Below are positions 1,993 through 40,291 of a stretch of 40,291 nucleotides of DNA, piece after piece (position 1 is the stretch's first letter; every line of letters starts with the position of its first letter). This stretch comes from an uncultured Roseburia sp. Its GTDB lineage: Bacteria; Bacillota; Clostridia; Lachnospirales; Lachnospiraceae. The stretch is taken from NCBI GenBank assembly GCA_947383215.1, contig CANDCP010000029.1, positions 1 through 40,291 of the forward strand, in the 5' to 3' direction. A model generated the notes under the pieces. It had not been told where the DNA came from. It saw only the letters and a list, made by a program, of their open reading frames with translations, and did not search any database. The position numbers were made by a program, and so were the translations under genes.

Positions 1993-2011
1993 GCGTTTTA
2001 TCGTATAAAAA

Positions 2012-2039
2012 GAGAACCCGGTTTGAGCGGGTTCTTTTT
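2012..2039 (+). terminator. Intrinsic terminator after nadE, probably bidirectional
   Basis: GAACCCG at 2014-2020 pairs with CGGGTTC at 2028-2034 and is followed by a T run. An A-rich run before the stem (2006-2010) would give a U tract on the other strand, so it could also end the convergent PAP2 gene. Confidence 0.85.
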
Positions 2040-2061
2040 GTTAGCTCAATATGCTGTCGAG

Positions 2062-2748
2062 CTACGTATGGTGGAGCTGTTTTTCGTAGGCCTTCTGTCG
2101 GCCGGCGACAAAAACTCTGCCGTATACAAATGAATACATTAAAGCGGCCATTACAAAGGCCGTAATCACATCGAAAACAGAATGCTGTTTTAGAAACATG
2201 GTCGCTAAGATGATACTTGTCATCAGCAAAAAAGACGCGGCTTTAATTCGCTTGTTTTCGCGAAGGCAGGCGCTGCTGCAAATTGCGAAATGTACCCCCA
2301 GGGAGTTGTACACATGGATACTCGGAAACAGGTTAGTCGGGGTATCCGCGGCGTAGAGCCAACGGACCATTGTGACAAAAATATTATCCCGCTCAAAGAC
2401 GCGGGGTCTTAGGTAGTGCCCGTTCGGATAGAGTGTGGACACAATTAAAAAAACTGTCATACCGATAAACAAAAATGTACATAATTTGTAATAATCACTT
2501 TTATTTTTAAAAAAGAAATATAAAATGGCATATGCTACATAACCAAACCATAATAAATATGGTACGATGAAATACTCGTTAAACGGAATATAATCGTCGA
2601 CTGCCATATGTATGACATTAAAATGGTTGGTTATTGTTTTTTCCAGGTAGGCAAACCACGGAAGATAGATAAATACATAGAGTAAAATCCATGCGTGCTT
2701 GTATTTTTGAAAAAAACCGTATGCCGCTGTTTTGGCTGCATAGAACAA
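2062..2748 (-). CDS. PAP2-family membrane phosphatase (PAP2_3 / IPC-synthase-like)
   Basis: Predicted polytopic membrane protein of 228 aa with about six hydrophobic segments. It carries PAP2 (lipid phosphatase/phosphotransferase) signatures: an Arg-Pro near LRPRVF, FPSIHV in the place of the classical PSGH motif, and KQHSVFDV as the final His...Asp motif. The FPS(I/L)HV form is typical of the AUR1/PAP2_3 branch. The likely role is dephosphorylation or head-group transfer on membrane lipid phosphates; the substrate is unknown. There is no in-frame ATG before residue 48, so the start is TTG at 2748, supported by an AAGG-type ribosome site (on the complement, about 2755-2760). It converges on nadE and diverges from the L,D-transpeptidase gene. 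Confidence 0.82.
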   Translation of the reverse strand: MFYAAKTAAYGFFQKYKHAWILLYVFIYLPWFAYLEKTITNHFNVIHMAVDDYIPFNEYFIVPYLLWFGYVAYAILYFFFKNKSDYYKLCTFLFIGMTVFLIVSTLYPNGHYLRPRVFERDNIFVTMVRWLYAADTPTNLFPSIHVYNSLGVHFAICSSACLRENKRIKAASFLLMTSIILATMFLKQHSVFDVITAFVMAALMYSFVYGRVFVAGRQKAYEKQLHHT

Positions 2749-2994
2749 AAAATCGCCTTCTTTACTTTATTTTCAATAGTTCTTGTGGATTATATCACAG
2801 CAGATTTTTAGAAACAATGGACTTTGAAAAACTTTTTTAAAATTATGAATTTCTTAATAATTAACGATATTTTTCATTGCGGTTTTGTGCAAAAATGCCA
2901 TAAATTTCTTAAAATAATCTTACAATTTATGGAAACGGTTGACAAAGGGGATAAAAACAATGTAGTTTTAGGAGAAGACAGGGGGAAAACAGAT

Positions 2995-4803
2995 ATGAAT
3001 CACAGAAAAAAGACCAAAATTGTGGCGGCTGTGTCGGTCGCGGCAGGGCTGGCGCTGCTCTATTTTGGACTGGCGTTTTACTTTCAGTCGCATTTTGCAT
3101 TTCGGACAGATATTAACCACCTGGATGTTTCCGGATGTGGCGTAAAAAAGGTGGAGAGGCGGCTGGAAAAGGAGATGAAAAGTTACAGGCTTTCTCTGAA
3201 GCCGCGCACGGGGGAGCGCGAGGAGATCAGGGGCGAGTCGATTGAGCTAAAACCTGTGTTTCGCCGGGAAATCGATGAGATGTTAGACAGACAGAATGCG
3301 TTTGCATGGCCGTATTACCTTGTCCGTGGACAGCGGTTCGTTTCGGAGGCGGTAGTGGAGTACGACGAAGGGAAGCTTCGGGAGGAAATCGGGCGGCTTT
3401 TTATGATGAAAAGCGCAGAGCAAAAAGAGTCCAGGGACGCATATATATCGGATTATTCGAGGGACGGATATCAGATTATAGAAGAAGAGTACGGAACGAA
3501 GATCGATGCGGAGGCGTTTGAAAAAGCCGTAAGGGAGGCGGTTTTAGGGCTTGATGAAGAGCTTGTCATGGATAAGGCGGGCTGCTATATCGATCCGAAG
3601 ATTACGAAAGAAGATGAGGGCCTGCGCAGCGCCTGCGACACGCTAAACAAGTATACAAAGCTTACAATTACATATAATGTGGGCGATAAGAGAGAGATTC
3701 TGGACGGAGAAATCATTCACCGCTGGCTCTCTGTCTCGAAAGGGAAAAAGGTGCGTATTGACGAGGCGCAGATTGCGGATTATGTGTCAGAGCTTGCCAG
3801 AAAATATAATACGGCGTTTCGCAGCAGGACCCTGCGCACGTCTTACGGAAAAGAAATAGCGATTGTCGGGGGGGATTACGGCTGGAAGGTGGATAAAGAC
3901 GCGGAGAGGGAGATGATTTTAAAGGATCTGAACGCGGGCGAGAGCGTGGAGAGAGAGCTGGTATATGCGCAGACGGCGAACAGCCACGGTCCGAATGATT
4001 ACGGGGACACATATGTGGAAATTAATCTGACGGCGCAGCACCTGTTTTTTTATAAGGACGGAGAACTTTTGGTGGAGTCGGATTTTGTATCCGGGAATAT
4101 TGCAAAGAGCCATGCCACTCCGGTCGGCGCATACAGTCTGACATATAAGCAAAAGGATGCGACGCTTCGGGGCGAGGATTATGAATCAAAGGTTTCTTAC
4201 TGGATGCCGTACTGCGGAGACGTCGGGATGCACGACGCTTCCTGGAGAAGCAGTTTTGGAGGCAGTATTTATAAGAGAAACGGTTCCCATGGCTGCGTGA
4301 ATCTCCCGGCGTCGGCGGCGAAGACCATTTTTGAAAATATAGAGGCGGGGTATCCGGTTTTGGTCTATGAGCTTTCGGGAACGGAGAGCGCGAAGGGACT
4401 GGCGCAGGACCGGGCGGCGTCGGTGGATGACCTGATAAGCGCAATCGGTGAAGTGACGCTGGACGCACAGCCGAAAATCAGCGCGGCGAGAGCCGCATTT
4501 GATGCGCTTGGAGAACAGGAGAAGGGTTATGTGAGAAAGCTCGACGTTTTGACGGCGGCGGAGGCTGCGTTCGCAGCCTTGCAGCAGGAAGCCGCAAATC
4601 AGGCCACGCAGGCGCAGGGCGAAGCGCAGGCGGTTATTGATAAAATAAACGCGATTGGGAAGGTAACCGAGGACGATAAAGCGGCAATCCGGGATGCCAG
4701 AAAGTCTTACGATGCCCTCTCGGAAATGGCGAAAGCCTATGTGACAAATTATGCCGTTTTGCAGGAAGCGGAAGAAGCGTATAAAGCGCTGACGGAGTCA
4801 TAG
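2995..4803 (+). CDS. Membrane-anchored L,D-transpeptidase (YkuD) with C-terminal helical repeats
   Basis: Cell-wall enzyme of 602 aa that probably makes 3-3 peptidoglycan cross-links or attaches proteins to the wall. A single N-terminal membrane segment (about residues 7-27) is followed by a peptidoglycan-binding-4-like region. The YkuD domain has catalytic motif SHGCVNL with Cys434. The last ~130 residues hold two copies of a helical repeat of the form AIG.VT....I..AR..(F/Y)DAL, each ending in YV......L..AE.A, seen in other Firmicute surface proteins. The reading frame extends upstream to a TTG at 2824, but ATG 2995 has an AGGGGG ribosome site and puts the basic residues and membrane segment at the N terminus. 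A weak promoter may lie at TTGACA 2939-2944. Confidence 0.9.
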   Translation: MNHRKKTKIVAAVSVAAGLALLYFGLAFYFQSHFAFRTDINHLDVSGCGVKKVERRLEKEMKSYRLSLKPRTGEREEIRGESIELKPVFRREIDEMLDRQNAFAWPYYLVRGQRFVSEAVVEYDEGKLREEIGRLFMMKSAEQKESRDAYISDYSRDGYQIIEEEYGTKIDAEAFEKAVREAVLGLDEELVMDKAGCYIDPKITKEDEGLRSACDTLNKYTKLTITYNVGDKREILDGEIIHRWLSVSKGKKVRIDEAQIADYVSELARKYNTAFRSRTLRTSYGKEIAIVGGDYGWKVDKDAEREMILKDLNAGESVERELVYAQTANSHGPNDYGDTYVEINLTAQHLFFYKDGELLVESDFVSGNIAKSHATPVGAYSLTYKQKDATLRGEDYESKVSYWMPYCGDVGMHDASWRSSFGGSIYKRNGSHGCVNLPASAAKTIFENIEAGYPVLVYELSGTESAKGLAQDRAASVDDLISAIGEVTLDAQPKISAARAAFDALGEQEKGYVRKLDVLTAAEAAFAALQQEAANQATQAQGEAQAVIDKINAIGKVTEDDKAAIRDARKSYDALSEMAKAYVTNYAVLQEAEEAYKALTES

Positions 4804-6175: not shown

Positions 6176-7696
6176 ATGATTGAGGAAAATATTCTTAGAT
6201 TGACGGAGTATGCCCTGACGACAGGGCTGATTGAGCAGGAAGATAAAACTTATACGGTAAATCGTCTTCTGGAGCTGTTTTTACTGGATGGGATCGGAGA
6301 AAAAGCGCTGGCGGAATCCGGGGAGGGTTCTGCCGCCAAAGACGATTTGGAGCGGATTTTATCTGAGATGCTTGACTATGCGTACGAAAACGGGATGATC
6401 AGGGAAAACGGGATTGCGTATCGTGATCTGTTCGATACGAAGATTATGGGACTTCTTGTTCCAAGGCCTTCCGAGGTGCGCAGAAGATTTTGGGAGCTCT
6501 ACGAGCGCCGGTCTGCGGAGGCGGCTACGGATTTTTATTACAGGCTAAGCTGCGACAGCGATTATATTCGACGCTACCGCGTCAAGAAGGATGTAAAGTG
6601 GACGGTAAATACGCAGTACGGGCCGCTTGATCTTACGATTAACCTGTCAAAGCCGGAAAAAGATCCAAAAGCGATTGCGGCCGCCAAGTCCGAGAAGCCG
6701 GGCGGTTATCCGAAATGTCTGCTTTGCGCTGAAAACGAGGGTTATGCGGGGCGGCTCAACCATCCGGCGCGGCACAATCACAGGATTATACCGCTTACGC
6801 TCTCCGGCGGCAGATGGTTTATGCAGTATTCGCCGTACGTTTATTACCGCGAACACTGTATTGTATTTCGCTCGGAGCATACGCCGATGAAAATTGAAAA
6901 GGAGACGTTTGGCAGGCTGCTCGATTTTGTGAGGCAGTTTCCGCATTATTTTATCGGCTCAAACGCGGACCTGCCGATTGTGGGAGGGTCAATTTTGACG
7001 CATGATCATTTCCAGGGGGGAAGGTATGAATTTCCGATGGCCAAAGCCCCGGTTGAGGAGGAGATTGCGTTTGAGGGATTTGAGGACGTAAGAGCGGGAA
7101 TTGTAAAATGGCCGATGTCCGTAATCCGGCTGCGCAGCGGTAAGATACCGCCTTTGGTTTCGCTCGCGGATAAAATCCTTCGCAAATGGCGCGGATATAC
7201 GGACGGGGAGTTATTTATTTATGCCGAGACGGACGGCGAGCGCCACAACACGATAACGCCGATTGCGAGAGTCCGGGAAGGAAATTATGAGCTGGATCTT
7301 GTGCTGCGCAATAATATTACGACAAAAGAGCATCCGTTTGGAGTATATCATCCGCATGAGAAGCTGCATCATATCAAGAAGGAAAACATCGGACTGATCG
7401 AGGTTATGGGGCTTGCGGTGCTTCCGGCGCGCCTGAAGGCGGAGATGGAGCGTCTGCGCGGGGCGATCCTTTCGGGCAAAGCGTTTTGTGAAGATGAGAT
7501 GATAAAAAAACATGCCGACTGGGCAAAAGAGTTTACCGGGAAATATAGAGAAATTACCGAGGAAAATGTAGATGAAATCATTCGAGAGGAGATAGGATTC
7601 GTATTTGAACAGGTTTTGGAGGATGCGGGGGTGTACAAACGGGATGAGAACGGAAGGAAGGGATTTCTAAGGTTTGTGGACTATGTAAATTCATAA
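6176..7696 (+). CDS. galT: UDP-glucose--hexose-1-phosphate uridylyltransferase, class II
   Basis: Exchanges UMP between UDP-glucose and galactose-1-phosphate, the second Leloir step. The 506-aa length and sequence style are those of the Firmicute class II GalT family, not the ~350-aa Escherichia coli type. Visible landmarks are NHRIIPL, the YYREHCIVF stretch and the active-site region THDHFQGG, whose HxHxQ-like core carries the histidine that is uridylylated in this superfamily. The start ATG follows GGGAGG closely. Co-transcribed with galK. No clear terminator was seen before the next gene. Confidence 0.94.
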   Translation: MIEENILRLTEYALTTGLIEQEDKTYTVNRLLELFLLDGIGEKALAESGEGSAAKDDLERILSEMLDYAYENGMIRENGIAYRDLFDTKIMGLLVPRPSEVRRRFWELYERRSAEAATDFYYRLSCDSDYIRRYRVKKDVKWTVNTQYGPLDLTINLSKPEKDPKAIAAAKSEKPGGYPKCLLCAENEGYAGRLNHPARHNHRIIPLTLSGGRWFMQYSPYVYYREHCIVFRSEHTPMKIEKETFGRLLDFVRQFPHYFIGSNADLPIVGGSILTHDHFQGGRYEFPMAKAPVEEEIAFEGFEDVRAGIVKWPMSVIRLRSGKIPPLVSLADKILRKWRGYTDGELFIYAETDGERHNTITPIARVREGNYELDLVLRNNITTKEHPFGVYHPHEKLHHIKKENIGLIEVMGLAVLPARLKAEMERLRGAILSGKAFCEDEMIKKHADWAKEFTGKYREITEENVDEIIREEIGFVFEQVLEDAGVYKRDENGRKGFLRFVDYVNS

Positions 7697-7808
7697 ATAA
7701 AAAAGACAAAAAAATGACACCAATGTAAAATATAACACCTTAACACCTTCGAAAATAAAGACTAAAATTAGTATTAAGTTATTTTAAAAGAGGGTGAAAT
7801 TAAAAATT

Positions 7809-7896
7809 GTCCGTCGAGAGGGAAATACAGACCTGAAATGTGGACGGGCAGTTTTTAAATATCAGGAGGAGCGCATAGGGGATGCGGTCAATCCTG
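7809..7896 (+). promoter_or_regulatory. Structured 5' leader of the first GH16 gene
   Basis: GTCCGTC (7809-7815) can pair with GACGGGC (7843-7849) and is followed by AGTTTTT, which resembles an intrinsic terminator. Next comes CAGGA (7863-7867) with TCCTG (7892-7896), enclosing a perfect CGCAT/ATGCG hairpin (7872-7876 with 7882-7886). The second element covers AGGAGG but ends 32 bp before the chosen ATG. This could be an attenuator or an unrecognised riboswitch; no known class was matched by eye. Confidence 0.35.
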
Positions 7897-7928
7897 GAAA
7901 GTTTTCATTAAAAAGCAGGAATAGTATA

Positions 7929-10900
7929 ATGAAAAGAAAATGGGTCAAAAAGGTGTTGTCCATTGCATTGGCGGCCTGTATGACAGTAACAGTGATTCCG
8001 TCGACCGGAATCGATGCGTTTGCGGTAGAGGCGGATGCCGAAGAAGCCGTAAAGTACATTGATTTCAATATGATTGAGCATGCCAATTATATTAATGAAG
8101 ATGTAACAAATGTTCAATTGAATTATGAGGGGACGAAAGCGACAATTACGGGAGATAATTGGAGTCCTGACTATGGAGATGGAACAAAATGGCAGATTCA
8201 GCTTAAAGAGCTAGTACCGGTTACAAAGGGTGAAAAGTATGAGGTTGCTTTTACAATTGAATCGGCGGTATCTAGGGATATATTCCTAAAAGTTGGGGAT
8301 GTGGAACAGGACAGTACGGTTTTTCTTGAGGAGACAATCTCTTTAGAGGCAGGAAAGCCTTATGAGTTTAAGAAGATGACGACTGCGGAAGTGGGAATTG
8401 AAAAATTGATGGTATTATTTGCGCTGGGATTAACTTCAACGGATGAAAATACCATTACGATTTCCGATTTTTCGTTAAAAGGAGAGAAATCGGGTTATGT
8501 CGATACAACACCGTACGTTAACTTTGATTATATTGAGCATGCCAATTATATTAATGAAGATGTAACAAATGTTCAATTGAATTATGAGGGGACGAAAGCG
8601 ACAATTACGGGAGATAATTGGAGTCCTGACTATGGAGATGGAACAAAATGGCAGATTCAGCTTAAAGAGCTAGTACCGGTTACAAAGGGTGAAAAGTATG
8701 AGGTTGCTTTTACAATTGAATCGGCGGTATCTAGGGATATATTCCTAAAAGTTGGGGATGTGGAACAGGACAGTACGGTTTTTCTTGAGGAGACAATCTC
8801 TTTAGAGGCAGGAAAGCCTTATGAGTTTAAGAAGATGACGACTGCGGAAGTGGGAATTGAAAAATTGATGGTATTATTTGCGCTGGGATTAACTTCAACG
8901 GATGAAAATACCATTACGATTTCTAACGTTTTGTTGAAAGGTGAAAAATCGGGATATGTCGTTGTCGAGAAGCCGGCGGAAGGAAAAGGTCCGGAATACG
9001 ACTTCTCCGCAACGGAGGACAACGCGAAAAATGATTATGCGGATCCTGGAAAGACAATAGACGGATACGACTTGATCTGGGCGGACGAGTTTGACGGAAA
9101 TTACGGTGATGCAAATGTAGATGCAGATACAGGTCTGAACCTTGACAACTGGGCGTGTCAGCTGGGCGACGGTACGACAGACTGCAGCAATCCTGGCTGG
9201 GGAAATAACGAGCTTCAGTGTTATACAGGCGACAAGAAGAATGTCGCAGTTAATGAGGATTTGAATGGCGACGGAAAGCCGGACGGCCTTTTGCGTATCA
9301 CCGCATCCTATGAAGAGGAAGGATATGATTACGCGGACGAGAGTTCGAAGAAATATACTTCCGCCCGTCTTCGCACAACGGAAGGTACAAATGAATTGTT
9401 TAACACGACATACGGTTATATTGAGGGACGTATGTCGCTTCCGGGGACAAAGGGCGCGTGGCCGGCATTCTGGATGCTGCCGCAGAGCACAGAGATTTAC
9501 GGCGGATGGCCGGTATCCGGAGAGATTGATATTATGGAGACATGCGGCGCTTTTGCAAACGGAAGCAACGCACAGGCATGCGGTACCTTGCACTGGGGCG
9601 GACCGGAGCATGTCTATAAGGGAAGCGGATATGTAGATTTGTCTTCGGATTACACCTATTTCCATACATACGCCGTTGATTGGGAGCCGGGTAAGATGAC
9701 TTGGTATTACGACGGCAAACCGATTAACACATTGACAAACTGGAAGAGCGCATTTTCCGGAGCGTCGGATGCCCTTTCCTTTGACGCACCGTTTGATCAG
9801 CCGTTCTATATGCTGTTAAATCTTGCGGTTGACAGCGGCCAGTTTGGCGGAAACGTAAATAAGGCGGCTTTCCAGGATGATATCAACATGTATGTGGATT
9901 ATGTACGTGTATATCAGAGACAAGAGGGATATGTGGACAGCGTAGTTCGCACGGCGTCCGACGGAATTCAGGACGACTGGGCTGATTATGCGGGACAGAA
10001 TCAGATTACGGATATTGCAGATAATATTGTAACAGATGTGCCGGACGGTAATGTAAACGGCGTAGAGACAAGCGGAGACGGTGCAGATCCGAGCAAATGG
10101 TATCTGGCTTATCAGGCGGATGCAACGGATGCAACAGCAGAGACATATAAGGATGCGGCAGGAAAGAACTGGGCGAAAGTCGGCGTGAACAGCCAGGGCG
10201 GACAGGATTATTCCGTACAGCTGATCGGACATTACAATGCGAAGGCTGGATACGTTTACAAGGTTTCCTTCGACGCATATGCGGACGGAGCGATTGTAGG
10301 AAAGACGGTTAATTGTGATTCTAAGGAGTGGAAAGGCTGGAGCACATACGGAATTCAGTCCTTTGAGCTGAAAGATACGGCGACGCCTTATTCCTTTGTA
10401 TTTGAGCAGACAGAAGATTTTGAGAATTGCCGAATTGAGTTTAATCTCGGCGCGCAGGCTTCCGGCAATGTTTACATTGGAAACGTAAAGGTTGAGATTG
10501 TAGATCCTTCTCTGATCAGCCGCGAAGAAGACCGCAAGCCTTTGGCGGACGGCAATCTGATTTACAACGGTACGTTCGATCAGGGCGATTATCATATCGG
10601 ATACTGGAGTGTGACGGAGGGAACAAAGATTTCCGTACCGCGTTATACGACAGAGAAGTTGACGGATACGGATGTATCGGTAGTGGATGTTGCGTCAAAG
10701 ACAAATTATGAAGCGATTGCGGACGGTGTGAAGTATTATGAGCGCCGTGCACAGATTACGGCGGAAGCAGGAAAAGCGGCGACAGTTTGCCAGACGGATC
10801 TGATTATGCCTGCAGACAGCTATGCGTTAGACTTTGATCTGTACAGTGAGAAAGATACGACGGTTACCGCTTCAATTTATTCCGTAAAGGTAACGGGAGA

Positions 10901-12427: not shown

Positions 12428-13708
12428 TTATTCCTTTTCGGATAATTGTATTACAAAAGTGCTTCCTCCTCCTTTCGTATCCGTTATCTCTAATTTTCCG
12501 TGGTGGGCGTCGACAATTTCCTTTGCAATGCTTAGGCCGAGGCCAAAATGCTCTTTTGTGGAGCGGGAGTCTTCGCCGCGGTAGAAACGGTCGAAAATAT
12601 ATGCTTTTTTATCGTCGGGAATCCCCGGACCGTTATCGGAGACCATAATGTAAAAGTATGGCGTATCATAGTTTAGAGACAGGAGAATCAATGCGTTTGG
12701 CCCCGCGTAAGAAATTGCGTTGGAGATCAGAATTCCAAGAAGCTGTGTGATCCGTGAGGGGTCACAGCTGCAAAGCGGGATGACGCTTTCCGGCAGTTCG
12801 ACATTTATGCGAATATTTTTATCCGCCGCGAGAGGAAGAAACGCTTCGTAGATATCTAAAAGGAGCGTATCTAATTCAGTAGGTTTCATGCAGAAAGACC
12901 AGGTGTGGTTGTCGGCGCCCGCCAGGGTCAGCATATCGTTGACGAGAACGGACATTCGCTGTCCTTCCTTCTCTACTGTGTGATAAAAATTATCCTTTTC
13001 CACAGAGGCGGCATTTTTTGCGGCTGAGATGGAGGAGAGTATAACGGAAAGCGGGGTTCGCAGCTCATGCGAGACGGCGGAGATAAATTCGTTTTGCTTT
13101 TTCTGAGCGGTTCGTATCGGTTTTAGCACTTTTTCCGTATAATAGCGGGAAAATATAAGCAGCAGCAAAAGGCCGCAGAAGTCGATTATCACGAAAGAAA
13201 AGCGCTGCGTTCGAAGTAATGCATTCAGTTCTTTTGTGGAACAGACGATAACGGCGAAGACGCTTCCGCTGTGCAGGCGCGCAGTGCAGGTATAATATCG
13301 CATGCCGTCGGAGGCGTCATAAATTGTTTCCGCATGCGGGGAAACATATTCGGAGGAAGATTGCCAAAACGTGTTTGCAAGAAAATCCTGCTCTAAAATT
13401 TCTTTGGCGAGAGCTTGTTCCTTTTCCGAGAGAATATTTTGCGTATAGTTGAGAGGAGCCCCGCTGTCATAAAACGCAATGATATACTGTTTGTTAAAGG
13501 AAATTTTTGAGAGCCATTCATGCGAAATGACATGAGTTTGTTCCAGGTTTGAGATCATAGTAATCACATCCGCCTGAAAAGATAAAAAATGGTTGCTTTT
13601 TAACGCTTTTTCGGACATATACAGGTAACAAAGCGACATAACAATCAGGATCAATCCCGCAATTCCGGTGAAAAGAAGCGTGAGCTGCTTATGGATTTTT
13701 CTGTACAT
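12428..13708 (-). CDS. Sensor histidine kinase
   Basis: Membrane sensor of a two-component system, 426 aa. Two membrane segments (about residues 11-31 and 170-187) bracket a ~140-residue extracytoplasmic sensing domain that I do not recognise. The kinase core follows: the H-box SHELRTPL with phospho-acceptor His214, then N-box (NAISYA), G1 (DNGPGIP), F-box (FDRFYRG) and G2 (GLGLSIA). The start ATG has a consensus GGAGG and overlaps the end of the response-regulator gene by 20 bp, so the two are translationally coupled. The pair diverges from the ABC-transporter operon, which makes those genes, or the GH16 genes, likely targets. The signal is unknown. Confidence 0.93.
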   Translation of the reverse strand: MYRKIHKQLTLLFTGIAGLILIVMSLCYLYMSEKALKSNHFLSFQADVITMISNLEQTHVISHEWLSKISFNKQYIIAFYDSGAPLNYTQNILSEKEQALAKEILEQDFLANTFWQSSSEYVSPHAETIYDASDGMRYYTCTARLHSGSVFAVIVCSTKELNALLRTQRFSFVIIDFCGLLLLLIFSRYYTEKVLKPIRTAQKKQNEFISAVSHELRTPLSVILSSISAAKNAASVEKDNFYHTVEKEGQRMSVLVNDMLTLAGADNHTWSFCMKPTELDTLLLDIYEAFLPLAADKNIRINVELPESVIPLCSCDPSRITQLLGILISNAISYAGPNALILLSLNYDTPYFYIMVSDNGPGIPDDKKAYIFDRFYRGEDSRSTKEHFGLGLSIAKEIVDAHHGKLEITDTKGGGSTFVIQLSEKE

Positions 13709-14381
13709 TTATATCCTCCAGTCGATAGCCGACCCCCCGGATTGTCTGTATCCGCGCAAGGGTGGAAACGTTTTTTAAGCGTCTTCGGATAAAATGAATA
13801 TAATTATCAAGGTTACCGTCTTCCACTTCCGTATCGATTCCCCATATTTTTGTCAAAATTGTATTTCTTGGGAGCGTCTGTCCGGGATTGTTTAGAAAAA
13901 ATTCCAGAAGAGCGCCTTCTTTTTTTGATAGGGTAAAGCTTCCAAGCGGGCCGCTTAAGCGGTTATTCTCCGGAAAATATCGAAGATCCAGGAAGGACAG
14001 ACAGTTATGCTCCTGCCAGCCCCTGGGACGCCTTGCGATACTGCGGATTCTTGCGAGGAGTTCTGTGGTGGCGAACGGTTTGACGAGGTAGTCGTCCGCT
14101 CCGGCGTCCAGCCCCGTAATTTTGTCATTCACCTCTCCGAGGGCAGTCAGGACAATTACAGGCGTTTCGTTTCCGGCGTCCCGAAGTTTTTTTAGAATTG
14201 TGACGCCGTCCATATGCGGCAGCATTCGGTCTAATAAAATCAGGTCGTAGATGTTTTGATCGATATAAAAAAGCGCATCCGCTCCGTCCATGCAGCGGTC
14301 GACGAAAAATCCGGCCGTCTCCAATTGTTTTGACAGGGAAACGCTCAGTCCCTCGTCGTCTTCTATCAATAAAATACGCAT
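13689..14381 (-). CDS. OmpR/PhoB-family response regulator
   Basis: DNA-binding regulator of 230 aa paired with the overlapping kinase gene. The receiver domain shows the acidic pocket (IEDDEG), phospho-acceptor Asp51 in LLLDRMLPHMDG, and the conserved Thr and Lys (VLTALG, DDYLVKPF). The C-terminal winged helix (about residues 125-225) ends in the typical RTIRGVGYRLE. The reading frame extends to 14429, but ATG 14381 matches the family start (MRILLIEDD) and has AAAGGA upstream. It is the first gene of the minus-strand pair and faces the binding-protein operon across 167 bp of AT-rich DNA. Confidence 0.95.
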   Translation of the reverse strand: MRILLIEDDEGLSVSLSKQLETAGFFVDRCMDGADALFYIDQNIYDLILLDRMLPHMDGVTILKKLRDAGNETPVIVLTALGEVNDKITGLDAGADDYLVKPFATTELLARIRSIARRPRGWQEHNCLSFLDLRYFPENNRLSGPLGSFTLSKKEGALLEFFLNNPGQTLPRNTILTKIWGIDTEVEDGNLDNYIHFIRRRLKNVSTLARIQTIRGVGYRLEDINVQKNP

Positions 14382-14460
14382 AAAAAATCCTTTCTTTTTT
14401 GTTTTATTTATTAAAACATATTTTATCATGTAAATCTTTAATTAAACTCTAATTTTTCAA

Positions 14461-14491
14461 TAAAGGTTTTTTTAGAGAAAATTTAAAGGTT
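14461..14491. promoter_or_regulatory. Candidate response-regulator direct repeats
   Basis: TAAAGGTT occurs at 14461-14468 and again at 14484-14491, a 23-bp period (about two helical turns). They lie in the divergent region between the regulator and transporter genes. OmpR-type regulators bind direct repeats, so these are candidate sites; no binding is shown. Confidence 0.35.
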
Positions 14492-14548
14492 CGTGTGTTA
14501 CCCTGCTTTTAGGGTGAGATATGAATAGAGCTTACAGGAGGATTTTGG

Positions 14549-16876
14549 ATGAGAAAACAAACAAAAATATTTAAAAAGAGAATCGGGGCGTTCATTGTGA
14601 TGGTGTTGCTGTCCTTTTCCATGGCCGGCTGCGCAGCCGGGAACGGAAATTTTGAGGGGGAGCAAAAAGAAGGACAGTCAGGCGGCGAAGGCAGCTCAGA
14701 AGGTCCGAAAGGCGACGGGGCGATGGGACGTTATATGGAGGAAGAATTTGAACTTCCAAAAGAGCTTGTTCAGATTTCGGATATCAGAAGGCTTGAAGAT
14801 AAGAGCCTGGCGATCCTCGATATGGAAGGCGGAGCATGTTTCGTGTCAGTCGACGAGGGGGCGAGCTGGGAGAGTAAGCCGGTGGCGGTGCTTTCCGGTT
14901 TGATGAACGAAGGAGGGGAAAAAGAGTATCTGGCAGGTACGCTGACAGACGACGGCGGAATCTTTTTTGGATACAATGACTGGGGCGCCTTATCGGCGGG
15001 AGAGGAGGGAGCTTCCACATATCCGACGCACTATTACTATGTGGACAGGGAGGGAAACGCCAAGGAAATTGCTTTGTCAATTGATAACGGGCATTCCTTT
15101 CTTTCGGAGGCCGTATATACGAAAGACCGCTCTTTTTATGGAATGGATAATTCAGGAAAAATTTACAGCGTCGATTTAGAAAATCAGAAAGTGGAATATC
15201 TGTTTACGCCGGAAAACGCCATGTCAATTTCAATGCATGTCTGGGAAAATAAACTGGTGGTTCTCGATGAGAAAAAAGCGTATTTCTATGAAAAAGGAGA
15301 CCGTGAAGCCGACAGCTCGGATGCGGTGTTAAATGAACAGCTCGAAAAGGCGCTAAAAGCGGGGGGAGCGGCCGCGGTTGCGGGGAAAGACGAAAAACTT
15401 TATCTCGCGTGCGCCGAGGGACTGTATTCCCATGTGGAGGGCGGCAGCGTTATGGAGCGGCTCGCGGACGGCGGTCTTCTGGCGCTTTCAGAGCCGTCAA
15501 AACAGGTCGGGAAATTACTGGCCAATGGGGATGGCAGTTTTCTTATTTCCTATAAAGACGGAAGTCTTTGTTCCTATACTTATGACGCGGACGTACCGGC
15601 AGTGCCGACGGAGCAGTTGAATGTATACAGTCTGTCAGATAATGGGACAGTCCGGCAGACAATCGGCAAATTTCGTAAAAAAAATCCTAACGTTTATGTG
15701 AAATTAGAGATCGGAATAAGCGGCGAGGACGGCGTGACGACGAATGATGCGATAAAAAATCTGAATACGAGGCTTTTAGCCGGCGAAGGGCCGGATATTT
15801 TGATTCTGGACGGGATGCCGATGGATTCATATGTGGAAAAGGGAATTCTTGCGGATATCAGCGGTCTGCTTGATGAAATTATGGGCGGATCGGAGTATTT
15901 TGAAAATATCGTAAGGGCGTACAAGACGGATAACGGGACATTTGCCGTTCCATTGCGCTTTTTTGTTCCAGCGCTGGTCGGAAAAGGAGAAAAGCTTGCG
16001 GCAGTTACCGATCTGAAATCTCTGGCTGACGCGGTGGAGGCGGTGAGAGCGGAGGATAAAAAGCCAAGATCGGTGCTTGGAACGTTTACGGCGGAAGAGC
16101 TGTTAGACATTCTGTCGGTTTCCTGCGGAAACGCGTGGCAGAAAGAAGAAGGGGGCCTTGATGAGAGCGCATTGCTGGAATTTTTTGCGCAGGCAAAACG
16201 AATCTACGAGGCAGATCAGGAGAATCTGACGAATGAGGACAGGGACGCCCACAACCGCGCGATGGCGATGGGAGCGAAGCATTTGCTGTCCATGGAAGCG
16301 CAGACCTTTAATATACAGTCGCGATATCAGATTTTTGCGATGGCGAACCTCGGAGGAAAAGAGGATTATCCGCATACGATTGCATCTCTGGTCAATATAG
16401 AGGACGGAATTTTGAAAAAGGCGGCGGGACAGGCGGACAATGTTTTCCTGCCGTCGGGAGTAGCGGGAATCTGCGAGGGGAGCAACAGCCGGGAGCTTGC
16501 GGAAGAGTTCTTTAAGGAAATGCTTTCAGAGGAAGTACAGGTTTATGATTCGCAGGATGGGTTTCCGGTGAATAAAACATCCTTTGCGGAATGGACAAAA
16601 CAGCCTGAAAATGCGGATACATCATCTCTGGCGATTGTGGGGGGCGGAGAAACGGACGGGGAGGTGTATTCCGTGGATTATTCGATCTGGCCGGATGAGG
16701 GACAATGGCAGAATTTGCAGGATATCATTTCAGAGCTTGAAAAACCGTGCCTGATGGATGAGGTGATTTTGGAAAGCGTAAAAGAGATCGGCGCGGATAT
16801 TTTGACAGGAGAGAAGAAGTTAGAGGACGGTGTGAATGAAATTAAACAGAAAATCGAGATATATATCAAAGAGTAA
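14549..16876 (+). CDS. Lipoprotein solute-binding protein with N-terminal propeller-like domain
   Basis: Extracellular binding component of a sugar-type ABC importer, 775 aa, about twice the usual ~430. The signal peptide ends in lipobox MAGC, giving lipid anchor Cys28. Residues ~50-345 form a run of short beta-rich repeats (phrases such as GASWES, DREGNAKEI, NSGKIYSVD) that resembles a beta-propeller. The classical binding-protein fold starts near residue 353 (LNVYSLSDN) with the GEGPDILILDG segment. ATG 14549 follows CAGGAGG. The next gene starts inside its 3' end (41-bp overlap). The ligand is unknown; the neighbouring beta-glucanases suggest gluco-oligosaccharides, which is inference only. 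Confidence 0.88.
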   Translation: MRKQTKIFKKRIGAFIVMVLLSFSMAGCAAGNGNFEGEQKEGQSGGEGSSEGPKGDGAMGRYMEEEFELPKELVQISDIRRLEDKSLAILDMEGGACFVSVDEGASWESKPVAVLSGLMNEGGEKEYLAGTLTDDGGIFFGYNDWGALSAGEEGASTYPTHYYYVDREGNAKEIALSIDNGHSFLSEAVYTKDRSFYGMDNSGKIYSVDLENQKVEYLFTPENAMSISMHVWENKLVVLDEKKAYFYEKGDREADSSDAVLNEQLEKALKAGGAAAVAGKDEKLYLACAEGLYSHVEGGSVMERLADGGLLALSEPSKQVGKLLANGDGSFLISYKDGSLCSYTYDADVPAVPTEQLNVYSLSDNGTVRQTIGKFRKKNPNVYVKLEIGISGEDGVTTNDAIKNLNTRLLAGEGPDILILDGMPMDSYVEKGILADISGLLDEIMGGSEYFENIVRAYKTDNGTFAVPLRFFVPALVGKGEKLAAVTDLKSLADAVEAVRAEDKKPRSVLGTFTAEELLDILSVSCGNAWQKEEGGLDESALLEFFAQAKRIYEADQENLTNEDRDAHNRAMAMGAKHLLSMEAQTFNIQSRYQIFAMANLGGKEDYPHTIASLVNIEDGILKKAAGQADNVFLPSGVAGICEGSNSRELAEEFFKEMLSEEVQVYDSQDGFPVNKTSFAEWTKQPENADTSSLAIVGGGETDGEVYSVDYSIWPDEGQWQNLQDIISELEKPCLMDEVILESVKEIGADILTGEKKLEDGVNEIKQKIEIYIKE

Positions 16877-35029: not shown

Positions 35030-36706
35030 ATGAAAAAGGGACAGGTTTTTGAAGGCATTGTTGAGAGAGTAGATTTTCCGAATAAAGGAATTGTCAGACT
35101 GGAGACGGGAGAGTGCGTCGTTGTTAAAAACGCGATTCGCGGTCAGAAAATATCGTTTTTCATTCAAAAGGCGCGCAAAGGAAAATGCGAAGGGCGTATA
35201 TTGGAAGTTTTAGAGAAATCACCGCTGGAGATGGAACAGCCGCCGTGCCCGCATTTCGGGTTCTGCGGAGGCTGCGCATTTTTGAGCCTTCCCTATGAGG
35301 AACAGCTGCGGCAGAAGGAGGAGCAGGTGAAACGCCTTTTGGATGCGGTGATCGATTATGAATATGAATTTTTGCCGATAAAGCCGAGCCCGAGACAGTT
35401 TGCGTATCGGAATAAGATGGAATTTACCTTTGGAGACGAGAGCAAGGGAGGTCCGCTTGCGCTTGGAATGCATAAACGGGGGAGCTTTTATGATATAGTG
35501 TCTGTCTCGGAGTGTCAGATTGTGGATGAGGATTACAGAGCGATTTTAAAATGTGTACAGCAGTTTTTTGAGGAACGGAAGGTTACGTTTTATCACAGAC
35601 TGCGACATACGGGATATCTGCGTCATCTTCTTGTCAGAAAGGCAGTAAAGACGGGCGAGATTTTGATCGATCTTGTAACGGCTTCACCGGAGGAAGAGCA
35701 GCGGGAACATATACTTTTGGAAGAAATGACGCGGGAGCTTGAGAAGCTTGAGCTTCAGGGAAAAATAACCGGGATCTTGCATACCAGAAACGACGGCGTT
35801 GCCGACACTGTTGCGGATGAGGGGACGACAATTTTGTACGGAAGAGATTATTTTTTTGAAGATCTGCTTGGCCTGCGTTTTAAAATATCGCCGTTTTCCT
35901 TTTTTCAGACCAATTCCCTGGGCGCCGAGGTATTGTATCAGACGGCGCGCGATTTTATCGGGGATACTTTGACAAAGTCGCGCGATAAAGACGCCGGAAG
36001 CGTCGTGTTTGATTTATACAGCGGAACCGGCACAATTGCGCAGATTCTCTCGCCGGTCGCCAAGAAAGTGGTCGGTGTGGAAATTATAGAGGAGGCGGTA
36101 GAGGCGGCGAGGGAAAATGCCAGATTAAATAATCTTGATAACTGTGAATTTATTGCCGGCGATGTCTTAAAGGTTCTGGATTGTATTGACGACAAGCCGG
36201 ATTTTATCGTTCTTGATCCGCCGCGCGACGGTATTCATCCGAAGGCGTTGGAGAAGATCATTCGTTATGGCGTAGAACGGATGCTCTATATCTCCTGTAA
36301 GCCGACCAGCCTTGCGAGAGATTTAAAAATTTTGCAGGAACGGGGATATGCGGTAGAAAGGGCGTGCTGCGTAGATATGTTTCCGGCGACTGCGAATATT
36401 GAAAGTATCGTGTTGCTTTCAAAACTTCATACAAAACAGAATATAGAAGTGGAACTGGAAATGAGTGAGCTTGATTTGACGGCTGCGGAGAGCAAAGCCA
36501 CTTATGCGGAAATTAAACAGTATGTGCTTGATAGATATAGATTGAAAGTATCCAGTTTGAATATTGCTCAGATTAAAGCAAAGTGTGGTATTATCGAGCG
36601 TGAGAATTATAATACGGCAAAGAACGAAAATGTTAAGCAGCCAAACTGCACAGAAGAAAAAGAAAATGCAATAAAAAACGCGTTCAAATATTTTCAAATG
36701 ATTTAA
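35030..36706 (+). CDS. rlmD: 23S rRNA m5U methyltransferase (RlmD/RumA family) with extra C-terminal tail
   Basis: SAM-dependent RNA methyltransferase of 558 aa making 5-methyluridine in 23S rRNA. The parts are: an N-terminal TRAM-like domain; iron-sulfur cysteines CPHFGFCGGC with a fourth in SECQIVDED; the SAM loop DLYSGTGTIAQ; LDPPRDGIHPKAL; and the nucleophile segment YISCKPTSLARDL. The usual end is reached at about residue 463 (NIESIVLLSKL). Another ~95 residues follow (ELDLTAAESKATYAEIKQY ... KYFQMI), in DNA that becomes AT-richer. From memory, this tail recurs on Clostridia RlmD proteins and in mobile elements; that needs a search. ATG 35030 is chosen over 34967. The next gene begins 13 nt downstream. 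Confidence 0.9.
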   Translation: MKKGQVFEGIVERVDFPNKGIVRLETGECVVVKNAIRGQKISFFIQKARKGKCEGRILEVLEKSPLEMEQPPCPHFGFCGGCAFLSLPYEEQLRQKEEQVKRLLDAVIDYEYEFLPIKPSPRQFAYRNKMEFTFGDESKGGPLALGMHKRGSFYDIVSVSECQIVDEDYRAILKCVQQFFEERKVTFYHRLRHTGYLRHLLVRKAVKTGEILIDLVTASPEEEQREHILLEEMTRELEKLELQGKITGILHTRNDGVADTVADEGTTILYGRDYFFEDLLGLRFKISPFSFFQTNSLGAEVLYQTARDFIGDTLTKSRDKDAGSVVFDLYSGTGTIAQILSPVAKKVVGVEIIEEAVEAARENARLNNLDNCEFIAGDVLKVLDCIDDKPDFIVLDPPRDGIHPKALEKIIRYGVERMLYISCKPTSLARDLKILQERGYAVERACCVDMFPATANIESIVLLSKLHTKQNIEVELEMSELDLTAAESKATYAEIKQYVLDRYRLKVSSLNIAQIKAKCGIIERENYNTAKNENVKQPNCTEEKENAIKNAFKYFQMI

Positions 36707-36719
36707 ATGGGAGGATAAA

Positions 36720-39092
36720 ATGCTAAAAAAGATAAAGTTTAAAGGAGGTTTTTTTAATGAAGAAAAAGAGCTGAAATTATTTATAAATGAAGATAGAATA
36801 TCAGTTCTTTACGGGAAAAATGGCTCTGGAAAAAGTACTATTTCTAATGCTGTGCGTAAGGCAAAAGGGGATGTAGTTGATGATATAGCCCAAGCCACAT
36901 TGCTTGATGAAAAAGATATGGCTTTTGTGGATACGCAGTGTATTCATGTGTTTAATGAAGATTATGTGAGTTCACGTGTTAAAATACAAGACGATGGGTT
37001 GAATGCAATTATTCTTTTGGGCGAACTAGGTAATCTTGAAGATAAAATATTGGATTTGGAACTTAGAATTGAAGCTGAATCTAAAAGAAATGCAGAACTT
37101 AAAACAGTTGCTGGCGAATATAAAGACAAAGATAATATAAAGTCTCCAAGCAACTGTAAATTTCAGATTAACCTTGGATTGTCTGGAAATGGACATTGGG
37201 CTGAGCGAGAAAAGATTATTAATAATGGTAAACGCAATGCCAGCGTTACGGATAAAGTAATGGATTCTATTATCGCATTGCAACCTGCTGAACCATTGGC
37301 GGATTTGAGAAAACGTTATGAAGAGAATCTTCAACTGTTAAGTCAAGTAATAGCTAATGAAGCGGCTCAGATTAGAAGTACTGTGAAATTGAATGTTCCA
37401 TATGATGAAAAGGTATTACAAAATCTTCTTTCACAGAAGGTTGAAAGACCTACGTTGTCAGATCGTGAGCAATATCTTCTTCAGCTTATTGATGACGGGA
37501 AATTAGATCAAATTAGTGAAATGAAGTCAGTATTTTCGAAAGAAAAGACAAAGAAATGTCCTTTTTGTTTTCAAGAAATCTCAGATCAAGGTAAACGAGA
37601 TTTAATTGGTAGTATAGAGAAAGTATTATCGAAAGAGGTTGATATTCATGAGGAAAAACTCAAAAAATGCATCATACAGGAATTGAATGTTGATTTTTCT
37701 GGTATGGATGTCTTGAATTCACCTAATTATATAAAGTGTAAAGATGTAGTGGAAGAAATCAATAAAGAGATATTTAAGATACGAGAAATTATTCTTAAAA
37801 AGATTAATCATCCGTATACACCTATTACTGATTTTGAGAGCTGCCTGATTGATAAACTTGAGCAATATGAGTTGTTTAGGACTAAGTTACAGCAGGAAAT
37901 AGAAAATTATAACAATGCAGTTAAAAAAATTGGAACGCTTAAAAGGAATCTCACAAATGATAATGCAACCATTGCACATTATGAGGTTTCTAGCGATATT
38001 AAGTTATGGAAGCAAGCCTTGGGGGAACAGAAGAAAGCTGATGAAGCATTAAAGGAATCTGACGAGAAAATCAAAAATCTCAATGATGAGCTGAATATCT
38101 TAAAATCTCGAAAGAAAAACATAAAAATAGCAGTTAGTTTGATTAATAAGAGCCTTAGATTTGTGTTCTTTTCAAAGGATAGATTAGAAATCAAAGTTGA
38201 AGGTGATAAATATGTATTGTATGCCCACGGAAAAGCAGTAAAGCCTAACAATGTGTCTGTTGGTGAAAGAAATATTATTGCTTTATGCTATTTTTTTACA
38301 GAACTGATTATGAATCAGGAGGCGAAAGACGGGTATTCAAAAAAACTAATCCTTGTTATTGATGATCCCATATCAAGTTTTGGTTTTGAAAACAAAGTGG
38401 GAATTATGTCACTGCTGAAAGCAAAGGTAGCCGATATTATTAAAACCAATCCAGAAAGCCAAATTCTAGTGATGACACATGATATTCAGTGTTTATATGA
38501 TTTTCAAAAAATTGGAGAAGAGGTTTGCAACGAATATAAGCGAGAAAGCAACGGGCAAAAGAAAGTTACATATGCTTGTTGTGAATTAAAAAACAAAGAG
38601 ATTATTCCATTCAGTTACACAAAACGAAACGAATATTCTGAGATTTTGAAAGCTGTATATGATTATGCTTGTGGTAAGAATGCGAATGACACTCTGATTG
38701 TTGGGAATTTAATGCGACGAGTGATGGAGGCGTTCTCAACATTTGTGTATAAAAAGGGAATAGCAGAGATTTCCTGTGATGATACGATTTTGCAACAGAT
38801 TGGAGACAAAGATTACATTGATTATTTCAAGAATCTAATGTATAGGCTTGTGCTTAATGGCGATAGTCATATGCTAGAGAGAACAAATAGTCTGGATGAC
38901 ATGGATTATTTGAATTTTTTAAGTGATGAAGAGCGACGAAGAACTGCACAGGAAGTTATTTGTTTCGTTTATTTATTAAATAAAAGGCATGTTTTGGCAC
39001 ACTTGGAAGGAAAGCAAAACATTGAAACCAATATTCAAAAGTGGTGTGCAGATATAAAAAGTTTTTGTGCGGGTGATGAAGTGACGGTGTAA
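36720..39092 (+). CDS. AAA_13 ATPase, RloC/PrrC-like candidate anticodon nuclease
   Basis: Large ABC/SMC-type ATPase of 790 aa. It has Walker A GKNGSGKST (residues 32-40), an ABC signature VSVGER (512-517), Walker B LILVIDDP (543-550) and the switch His587 in VMTHD. The middle (about 105-470) is helical and holds KKCPFCFQ with Cys280/Cys283, a candidate Rad50-like zinc hook as reported for RloC. The C-terminal region carries R666-x3-E670 and His717, which resemble the Arg-Glu-His set of PrrC/RloC anticodon nucleases; the E-to-H spacing is wider (47 versus about 32 in PrrC). If correct, it would cleave tRNA on DNA damage or phage attack. GGGAGG lies before the ATG, 13 nt after rlmD. An alternative is a general AAA_13 defence ATPase without nuclease activity. 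Confidence 0.72.
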   Translation: MLKKIKFKGGFFNEEKELKLFINEDRISVLYGKNGSGKSTISNAVRKAKGDVVDDIAQATLLDEKDMAFVDTQCIHVFNEDYVSSRVKIQDDGLNAIILLGELGNLEDKILDLELRIEAESKRNAELKTVAGEYKDKDNIKSPSNCKFQINLGLSGNGHWAEREKIINNGKRNASVTDKVMDSIIALQPAEPLADLRKRYEENLQLLSQVIANEAAQIRSTVKLNVPYDEKVLQNLLSQKVERPTLSDREQYLLQLIDDGKLDQISEMKSVFSKEKTKKCPFCFQEISDQGKRDLIGSIEKVLSKEVDIHEEKLKKCIIQELNVDFSGMDVLNSPNYIKCKDVVEEINKEIFKIREIILKKINHPYTPITDFESCLIDKLEQYELFRTKLQQEIENYNNAVKKIGTLKRNLTNDNATIAHYEVSSDIKLWKQALGEQKKADEALKESDEKIKNLNDELNILKSRKKNIKIAVSLINKSLRFVFFSKDRLEIKVEGDKYVLYAHGKAVKPNNVSVGERNIIALCYFFTELIMNQEAKDGYSKKLILVIDDPISSFGFENKVGIMSLLKAKVADIIKTNPESQILVMTHDIQCLYDFQKIGEEVCNEYKRESNGQKKVTYACCELKNKEIIPFSYTKRNEYSEILKAVYDYACGKNANDTLIVGNLMRRVMEAFSTFVYKKGIAEISCDDTILQQIGDKDYIDYFKNLMYRLVLNGDSHMLERTNSLDDMDYLNFLSDEERRRTAQEVICFVYLLNKRHVLAHLEGKQNIETNIQKWCADIKSFCAGDEVTV

Positions 39093-39231
39093 TTATGATT
39101 GCATTATATTCCATGGGAATTAAGGACGTGGTCTATATTTAACCAAAGACAGGTGATAAAATGATTTCTATATTAAGGTATTTTTAAGATTATCGGGGAA
39201 ATACAATTTGAATGTAAGGAGAAATCGTAAT

Positions 39232-39250
39232 GTATCGAAGTAGTCGATAC
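39232..39250. promoter_or_regulatory. Perfect 7-bp hairpin / palindromic operator candidate
   Basis: GTATCGA (39232-39238) and TCGATAC (39244-39250) flank a 5-nt spacer. No T run follows, so it is not a standard terminator. An AAGGAG with a 7-codon frame overlaps it, too short to call a gene. Confidence 0.4.
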
Positions 39251-39287
39251 TGACTTTGCCTAAAAATACACCTAAAACAATTTATGC

Positions 39288-39335
39288 TTTGCCAAATGTG
39301 GATGTAAGAATAGGATAAATATGGTAATTGGCAAA
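39288..39335. repeat. 8-bp inverted repeat upstream of the nuclease gene
   Basis: TTTGCCAA (39288-39295) and TTGGCAAA (39328-39335) are perfect inverted copies 32 nt apart, ending 21 bp before the nuclease ATG. A further TTTGCC stands at 39255-39260. Possible operator or structured RNA. Confidence 0.35.
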
Positions 39336-39356
39336 TAGGAATATGGGAGGTGTTTT

Positions 39357-40291
39357 ATGGATAAGCGCAAGCGGATGGGAAAGGATAAAGAAGGAGTGAT
39401 ATTTCCGGTTGCTCCGAATCTTTCTGAAATGGGTGATAGTTATTTGCAATTTATAGAAGAAATTAAGAAAGAAATTCAGAAGCAGAGAGTTTCAGTTGTA
39501 ATGAACGCCAATACAAGCATGATTTGTCTTTACTGGAATATTGGCAAGGCTATTATGAAAAAGCAAGAGGAAGAGGGATGGGGTGCAAAGGTTATTGACC
39601 GTATGTCAAAGGATCTGAAAATTGCTTTTCCAGAAATGTCCGGCTTTTCTCCGCGTAATATTAAATATATGCGCAAATTTGCCCAGTGTTGGGAGAATGA
39701 GGAAATAGTGCAACGGATCGTTGCACAAATACCATGGCGGACAAATATTACTTTGATGGATAAATTAAAAACACAGGAAGAACGTATATGGTATGCTGGT
39801 AAAGCAATAGAAAACGGTTGGAGTAAAACGATACTTGAGTTACAGATACAAAGTAAATTAATGGAACGTACCGGAAAAACAGTCAACAATTTTCCTGTGG
39901 CACTGCCACCGCTTGATTCTGATATGGCGAATCAGATATTTAAAGATCCTTATTTGTTTGACTTTTTGGGAACCGATATGCCAAGACGTGAAGTGGAAAT
40001 AGAACAGAAACTAACAGAACATATTCAAAGTTTTCTATTAGAATTAGGACAGGGATTTGCATTTGTTGGTCGGCAGGTTCATTTAGAGGTTGGAGGACAG
40101 GATTTTTATTTGGATCTTTTGTTTTATCACTTGAAATTACGTTGCTATGTTGTGATAGAATTGAAAGCCTGTGGTTTTGAGCCGGGATTTATCAGTCAGT
40201 TAAATATGTATCAGAATATAGTAAATGATATTTTGTGCCATCCTGATGATAAACCAACAATTGGACTTTTATTGGTTAAGGGTAAGAATAA
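39357..40291 (+). CDS. DUF1016 / YhcG-family PD-(D/E)xK nuclease (3' end outside window)
   Basis: First 311 codons of an open frame that runs off the window. Residues ~25-165 match the DUF1016 N-terminal helical domain (YWNIGKAI, FSPRNIKYMRKFA, IPWRTN, WYAGKAIENGWS). Residues ~185-311 match the YhcG C-terminal nuclease: KDPYLFDFL, GFAFVGRQVHLEVGGQDF, then the candidate catalytic set D253 (in YLDLLFYH) and E268-x-K270 (in VVIELK), then HPDDKPTIGLLL. These proteins are predicted DNA nucleases often found in type I restriction loci and defence islands. ATG 39357 follows GGGAGG. Probably only a few dozen residues are missing. Confidence 0.9.
   Translation, partial: MDKRKRMGKDKEGVIFPVAPNLSEMGDSYLQFIEEIKKEIQKQRVSVVMNANTSMICLYWNIGKAIMKKQEEEGWGAKVIDRMSKDLKIAFPEMSGFSPRNIKYMRKFAQCWENEEIVQRIVAQIPWRTNITLMDKLKTQEERIWYAGKAIENGWSKTILELQIQSKLMERTGKTVNNFPVALPPLDSDMANQIFKDPYLFDFLGTDMPRREVEIEQKLTEHIQSFLLELGQGFAFVGRQVHLEVGGQDFYLDLLFYHLKLRCYVVIELKACGFEPGFISQLNMYQNIVNDILCHPDDKPTIGLLLVKGKN

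Follow-up and report, generated by a model that had tools for sequence, protein, structure and literature searches.

The 40,291-nucleotide stretch of DNA analysed here, referred to throughout as the window, comes from an uncultured Roseburia sp. (GCA_947383215.1, contig CANDCP010000029.1, positions 1 to 40,291, forward strand). At 36720..39092 on the plus strand it carries an intact open reading frame with an ATG start, encoding a 790-residue ABC ATPase with a C-terminal domain of the anticodon-nuclease type. Our analysis supports, at the level of sequence, the assignment of this gene to a known kind, RloC, and places it in a distinct branch. We consider it probable that the product is an RloC-type anticodon nuclease in which a DNA-sensing head controls a tRNA-cutting RNase. 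The gene is present in one copy in its own genome.

RloC proteins are defined by Davidov and Kaufmann (PMC2610378) as 658-897 amino acids long, with ABC motifs split by a helical CX2C insert and a C-proximal Arg-X3-Glu-X36-52-His motif in which a Ser frequently precedes the His. The window protein agrees with this definition, as given there, in its size, its ABC motifs, its insert and its triad. All of its motifs lie on the plus strand. The ABC set comprises Walker A (GKNGSGKS, residues 32-39, 36813..36836), the signature (SVGER, residues 513-517, 38256..38270), Walker B (LILVIDDPIS, residues 543-552, part of the Walker B and D-loop segment LILVIDDPISSFGF, residues 543-556, 38346..38387) and a switch histidine assigned by analogy (H587, 38478..38480), with the caveat of an unusual glycine in the D-loop that is taken up below. 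The only CxxC in the protein is CPFC (residues 280-283, 37557..37568), whose cysteines C280 and C283 are predicted from the motif to form a zinc hook; the helical insert that holds them divides the ATPase domain in two. In the C-terminal part, R666-x3-E670 (38715..38729) is followed after 46 residues by H717, itself preceded by S716 (38865..38870). The initial annotation had proposed an RloC-like nuclease on these grounds, and string searches placed each motif within one or two residues of its claimed site; the signature is indeed there, starting at residue 513 and not at 512. The AAA_13 (PF13166) profile search that it had proposed gave E 1.3e-55 over residues 25-721, and PADLOC assigned the protein to the candidate defence family PDC-S06 (E 1.3e-41). 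Both profiles match nearly the full length, but these are broad families, and AAA_13 includes proteins without a His at the triad column.

The distance of 47 residues from E670 to H717 had been singled out because it is longer than in PrrC. It does exceed the 32 of PrrC, yet it is no oddity for RloC: because the definition allows X36-52, and because GkaRloC of G. kaustophilus (R692, E696, H737) has a spacing of 41 (PMC2610378), the value in the window protein is ordinary, and PrrC is the wrong yardstick. PrrC of the E. coli EcoprrI system shares the ABC ATPase and the Arg-Glu-His triad (PMC2610378), but PrrC proteins are 341-416 amino acids long, lack a zinc-hook insert and are tied to type I restriction-modification systems. 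With 790 residues and a CX2C motif, the window protein does not fit PrrC. Our comparison was made with the published definition of RloC. Within what PMC2610378 and PMC3874168 describe for GkaRloC and for AbaRloC of A. baylyi, RloC and the window gene are alike in size class, split ABC motifs, CX2C and triad pattern; genes of this kind at times have a restriction-modification neighbour.

Relatives were gathered in several ways. A search for related loci yielded 11 out of 75 stretches, and five plasmids were taken from 40 listed of 186 records, two of which (L034 and L035) fall in the branch; 80 viral contigs were kept of 104 confirmed. With P0001 as query at 1e-10, protein searches matched 7 of 392 genomes in the order, including an 87-residue fragment (L043) and a locus outside the branch (L044), and 4 of 398 in the phylum. 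With L041 as query at 1e-20 or 1e-30, they matched 2 of 48 genomes in the family of G130, 4 of 341 in the class, 1 of 58 in the family of G329, 4 of 348 in the own family of the window genome and 1 of 1 in the genus of G1252. The counts for order, phylum, class and own family each include the window genome itself once. PF13166 was found in 32 of 61 genomes of relatives at E <= 0.001, and in 9 of the 61 above the family's cut-off. A profile search returned 111 segments. Loci whose segment reached 550 amino acids or more, 100 in all, were aligned to the window protein. Manual pruning took out 25 rows that were near-duplicates, too short or poorly aligned, and three further loci were included; the resulting tree comprised 79 rows, with neither GkaRloC nor AbaRloC, nor any other named RloC, among them.

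In this tree the window protein and 19 relatives form a single clade with support 1.0, in keeping with the divergent subfamily that the initial annotation had envisaged. The branch has its own signature residue: at position two of the signature, residue 514, all 20 members carry V, L, T, I or C where all 59 other rows carry E, so that S-[V/L/T/I/C]-G-E stands against the SEGE of the other AAA_13 rows in the tree. One of the 25 dropped rows, L018 from G024, goes against this rule: this 697-residue AAA_13 relative outside the branch reads SYGE and has no triad. The tail after the triad is also longer in the branch, at 61-77 amino acids in members without an S24 domain; most other proteins have 40-54, and the exceptions among them run to as many as 99. 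In an alignment of 20 sequences C280, C283, N663, R666, E670, S716, H717 and H757 are invariant. In the 79-row set, all 20 branch members keep R666, E670, S716 and H717. No member of the branch lacks the Arg, Glu or His of the triad, a loss that had been named as evidence against the nuclease assignment. Of the 59 rows outside the branch, 55 keep the Arg, 52 the Glu, 39 the Ser and 32 the His, whereas C280, C283, H587 and H757 (38988..38990) are conserved in all 79. H757 is therefore an additional invariant histidine, outside the triad residues as given in PMC2610378 yet conserved more widely than the triad histidine.

Among the 27 rows without a His at the 717 column, 12 have one somewhere at RloC-like spacing. 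These 27 rows (L076, L077, L071, L106 and others), 26 of which come from viral contigs, are an AAA_13 group that keeps the final QHY/QHF histidine. Judging from its sequences, the C-terminal domain of this group may work differently or may cut no RNA.

Studies of RloC suggest how the window protein would act. PrrC and GkaRloC share the Arg-Glu-His triad and both cut tRNA (PMC2610378), and AbaRloC is activated by a DNA-break inducer and cuts tRNAGlu and tRNAGln, in restriction-modification-deficient hosts as well (PMC3874168). The latter work describes activation by DNA-break inducers in the natural host as needing no restriction-modification system and proposes an internal Rad50-like switch. 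By analogy with GkaRloC and AbaRloC, we infer that the window protein would cleave tRNA, be controlled by zinc and be activated by DNA breaks. In GkaRloC, activity changes when the hook cysteines are lost. Its Rad50-like head, with a coiled-coil arm tipped by the CPFC hook, would serve as sensor and switch, and the helical domain at its C-terminus, which bears R666, E670 and H717, would be an RNase that needs no metal and acts on the anticodon loops of tRNA. In the resting state this RNase would be held inactive by head and hook. DNA that is broken, or damaged by phage, would engage the head, ATP hydrolysis would follow, and the released RNase would halt translation as an abortive, second-line defence. 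The S24 fusions in the sister clade, described below, are a separate hint, drawn from genomes, that the trigger is DNA damage.

The fold was modelled for the whole protein and for its C-terminal part. The full-length model, built from a 44-row alignment, has a mean predicted local distance difference test score (pLDDT) of 76.7 and a predicted template-modelling score (pTM) of 0.49, with helices flanking the hook (248-274 and 289-315) and further long helices at 103-140 and 424-483. The C-terminal model, residues 615-790, is an all-helical bundle (pLDDT 75.8, pTM 0.73). In a second look with VIA, HEPN structures recur among its matches (8xdj and 8yuf at 6.2, 7ae6 at 5.6, sacsin at 5.4, Csm6' at 5.3, AbiV at 4.5-4.9 and Las1 at 3.7), and support for a HEPN fold of this domain is suggestive and weak. 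Sequence searches of solved structures matched P-loop, Rad50/SMC and coiled-coil proteins, with AriA at 3.4e-7 when a broad profile was used; no PrrC or RloC entry appears in the match lists, which does not exclude that such a structure exists.

Several observations call for caution over the proposal that the window protein is a tRNA-cutting RloC. The HEPN RNase AbiV tops the Foldseek list for the C-terminal model, yet with an E of 1.2; M2-1 of respiratory syncytial virus (RSV) outscores the HEPN structures in VIA (8.2), where a score under about 13 may carry little meaning for a helical bundle; and the loop bearing H717 has a pLDDT below 50 in both models. The tRNA target itself is carried over from studied RloCs. 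Residue 555 in the D-loop (38382-38384, plus strand) is Gly in the window copy alone and Asp in the 19 other branch members, and 4 of the 12 near relatives outside the window (L009, L010, L011 and L012) have broken frames.

Three other explanations were considered. The protein could be a HEPN-type RNase of the same build with a target different from the anticodon loop of tRNA, for instance mRNA or rRNA. The triad and hook indicate an RNase under ABC control and not its RNA target, the branch departs from other AAA_13 proteins in its signature and its longer tail, and mRNA is the substrate of some HEPN RNases, RNase LS being an example (PMC3710099); but the tRNA cleavage reported for PrrC and GkaRloC, which have the same triad, and the tRNAGlu and tRNAGln targets of AbaRloC make a different target unlikely. 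We consider it very improbable that the protein is mainly a Rad50- or Lamassu-like DNA sensor or DNA-end binder whose C-terminal domain is structural. The best fold matches of the full-length model are indeed chains of SMC (condensin), Rad50 and Lamassu LmuACB, where the lowest E is 6.8e-7, TMq values are low at 0.14-0.24 and most root-mean-square deviations are large; the PADLOC LmuB model matches the protein at 6.8e-15; and the 27 rows without the triad His make up part of the 59 outside the branch. The head fold is thus shared with Rad50/SbcC and LmuB, and the zinc hook with Rad50 only. Within its own branch, however, the triad is invariant, and a triad domain at the C-terminus is absent from Rad50 and SbcC (PMC2610378); its presence in the window protein speaks against membership of Rad50/SbcC. 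Nor does an Mre11/SbcD-like or LmuA-like nuclease partner adjoin the gene. LmuB is encoded together with the LmuA nuclease; the neighbours here are rlmD and a YhcG-type nuclease gene, within which the contig ends, and between these adjacent genes the window gene does not show the arrangement of LmuB.

Whatever the family does, the window copy might be a decaying, non-working relic, a reading compatible with the others and one that we hold to be rather doubtful. The lone Gly555 and the broken frames of near relatives favour it, and the copy is possibly impaired in its own genome. Against this, the 790-residue frame is intact and all its other motifs are present. An intact frame is also found in L002, a 98% relative. 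Moreover, the D-loop column outside the branch holds Asp in 42 and Ser in 17 of the 59 rows, and since these Ser rows belong to other AAA_13 proteins, the Asp is not essential family-wide. The broken frames in near relatives suggest, as far as sequences can, that the RloC-type gene is costly or often lost.

In four relatives the RloC-type protein, with an RNase domain of the kind proposed above, continues into a Peptidase_S24 domain C-terminal to the nuclease domain. These are L040 (916 amino acids, 1105-3852, minus strand, E 1.2e-19), L041 (926 amino acids, 1486-4263, plus strand, E 9.3e-20), L042 (3-2054, plus strand, its 5' end cut by the contig, E 1.5e-22) and L148 (917 amino acids, 6378-9128, plus strand, E 2.6e-24); the complete ones are, at 916-926 residues, longer than the published RloC range. 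They make up 4 of the 20 branch members and form a single clade (support 0.993) with mutual identities of 47-53%, in genomes spanning three families (f17, f11, f11 and f1). An assembly chimera is unlikely because each fusion is a single open frame in a different genome. All four keep the zinc hook and the R-E-SH triad, share the motif LYD-[L/I]-PLSAG, and conserve the motif of a Ser-Lys dyad together with an Ala-Gly pair, a candidate self-cleavage site by motif only. In the three members first measured, the Ala of the Ala-Gly pair lies 32-33 residues ahead of the Ser and the Lys at +36; in L041 the Ser is S849. Searches of solved structures with the S24 part (phmmer) matched lambda CI, LexA and UmuD' (E 0.0005-0.008). 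Peptidase_S24, dyad and Ala-Gly site are thus common to LexA/CI/UmuD and the four relatives; the difference is that S24 is joined here to an anticodon-nuclease-type ATPase and not to a DNA-binding domain.

The sequences suggest that the S24 fusion is an SOS-coupled anticodon nuclease, in which RecA-stimulated self-cleavage would free the nuclease. Tentatively, and with somewhat more doubt than belief, we propose that the branch is tied into the cell's response to DNA damage and that, in the S24 clade, the S24 domain restrains the nuclease until it cuts itself at Ala-Gly when RecA filaments form on damaged DNA or when a phage antirepressor binds. Alternatively, the S24 domain could serve in dimerisation or in sensing a phage antirepressor. 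Among the titles and opening lines of abstracts listed in our searches of the open-access literature, we found no report of an S24 fusion to RloC or another anticodon nuclease, which does not by itself show that none has been published. No S24 fusion was confirmed among the 127 stretches of the A3 scan of viral contigs, and none of the best 20 of 173 plasmid records matched by L041 spans both parts. In the class search, two of the four matched genomes (L062 and L063) align to the S24 domain only, and among phages P0001 matched three records, none of them close. Inspection by eye of the open reading frame lists of non-fused members revealed no separate S24 gene nearby, not every frame having been searched with a profile. 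LexA-box control of the window gene was considered and rejected: the consensus, which we take to be GAACNNNNGTTC, has 17 matches in the window with at most one mismatch against 14.4 expected, none of them within 250 bases upstream of the gene, the nearest being at 36275-36286 and 36796-36807. At fewer than two mismatches it is likewise absent from 11 other upstream regions, which include those of L040 and L041 and not those of L042 and L148. Downstream of the fused gene, L148 encodes at 13404-15992 a large protein with many repeated CPxC zinc-ribbon-like units.

In regard to its surroundings, the gene lies at the edge of an island, as had been predicted. The guanine-plus-cytosine content falls from 0.479 over 1-36400 to 0.341 over 36401-40291, and the match to L011 starts at 36401, within the 3' end of rlmD, the body of rlmD being different in L011. 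This exchangeable 3' end (36401..36706, plus strand) is the probable left end of a mobile island. Because the rlmD stop codon lies 13 bases ahead of the RloC-type start, co-transcription is likely. The exchangeable tail of 80 residues is joined to different RlmD bodies (window 36401-36706; L002, L004, L009, L010 and L011), related tails stand free downstream in L002 (11848-12177) and L011 (11771-12100), and the sequences suggest nested insertions at rlmD. On the other side lies a YhcG/DUF1016 PDDEXK nuclease gene (PADLOC PDC-S02; 39357..40289, plus strand, cut by the contig end), which is found 3' of the RloC-type gene in the window, L002, L010 and L011. It is a companion island gene, and joint action with the RloC-type gene is not implied.

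Our findings bear on how RloC-type proteins are recognised and how their activation can be studied. The branch-specific signature residue helps to recognise a subfamily that is labelled only "AAA family ATPase" in its two plasmid records. The S24-fused clade is the new element, and through it the link between RloC and DNA damage becomes directly testable, since the fusions allow a simple trigger experiment on whether RecA-dependent cleavage turns the anticodon nuclease on. If the proposed role of the S24 domain is true, it would amount to an SOS toxin switch that acts on an anticodon nuclease post-translationally rather than transcriptionally.
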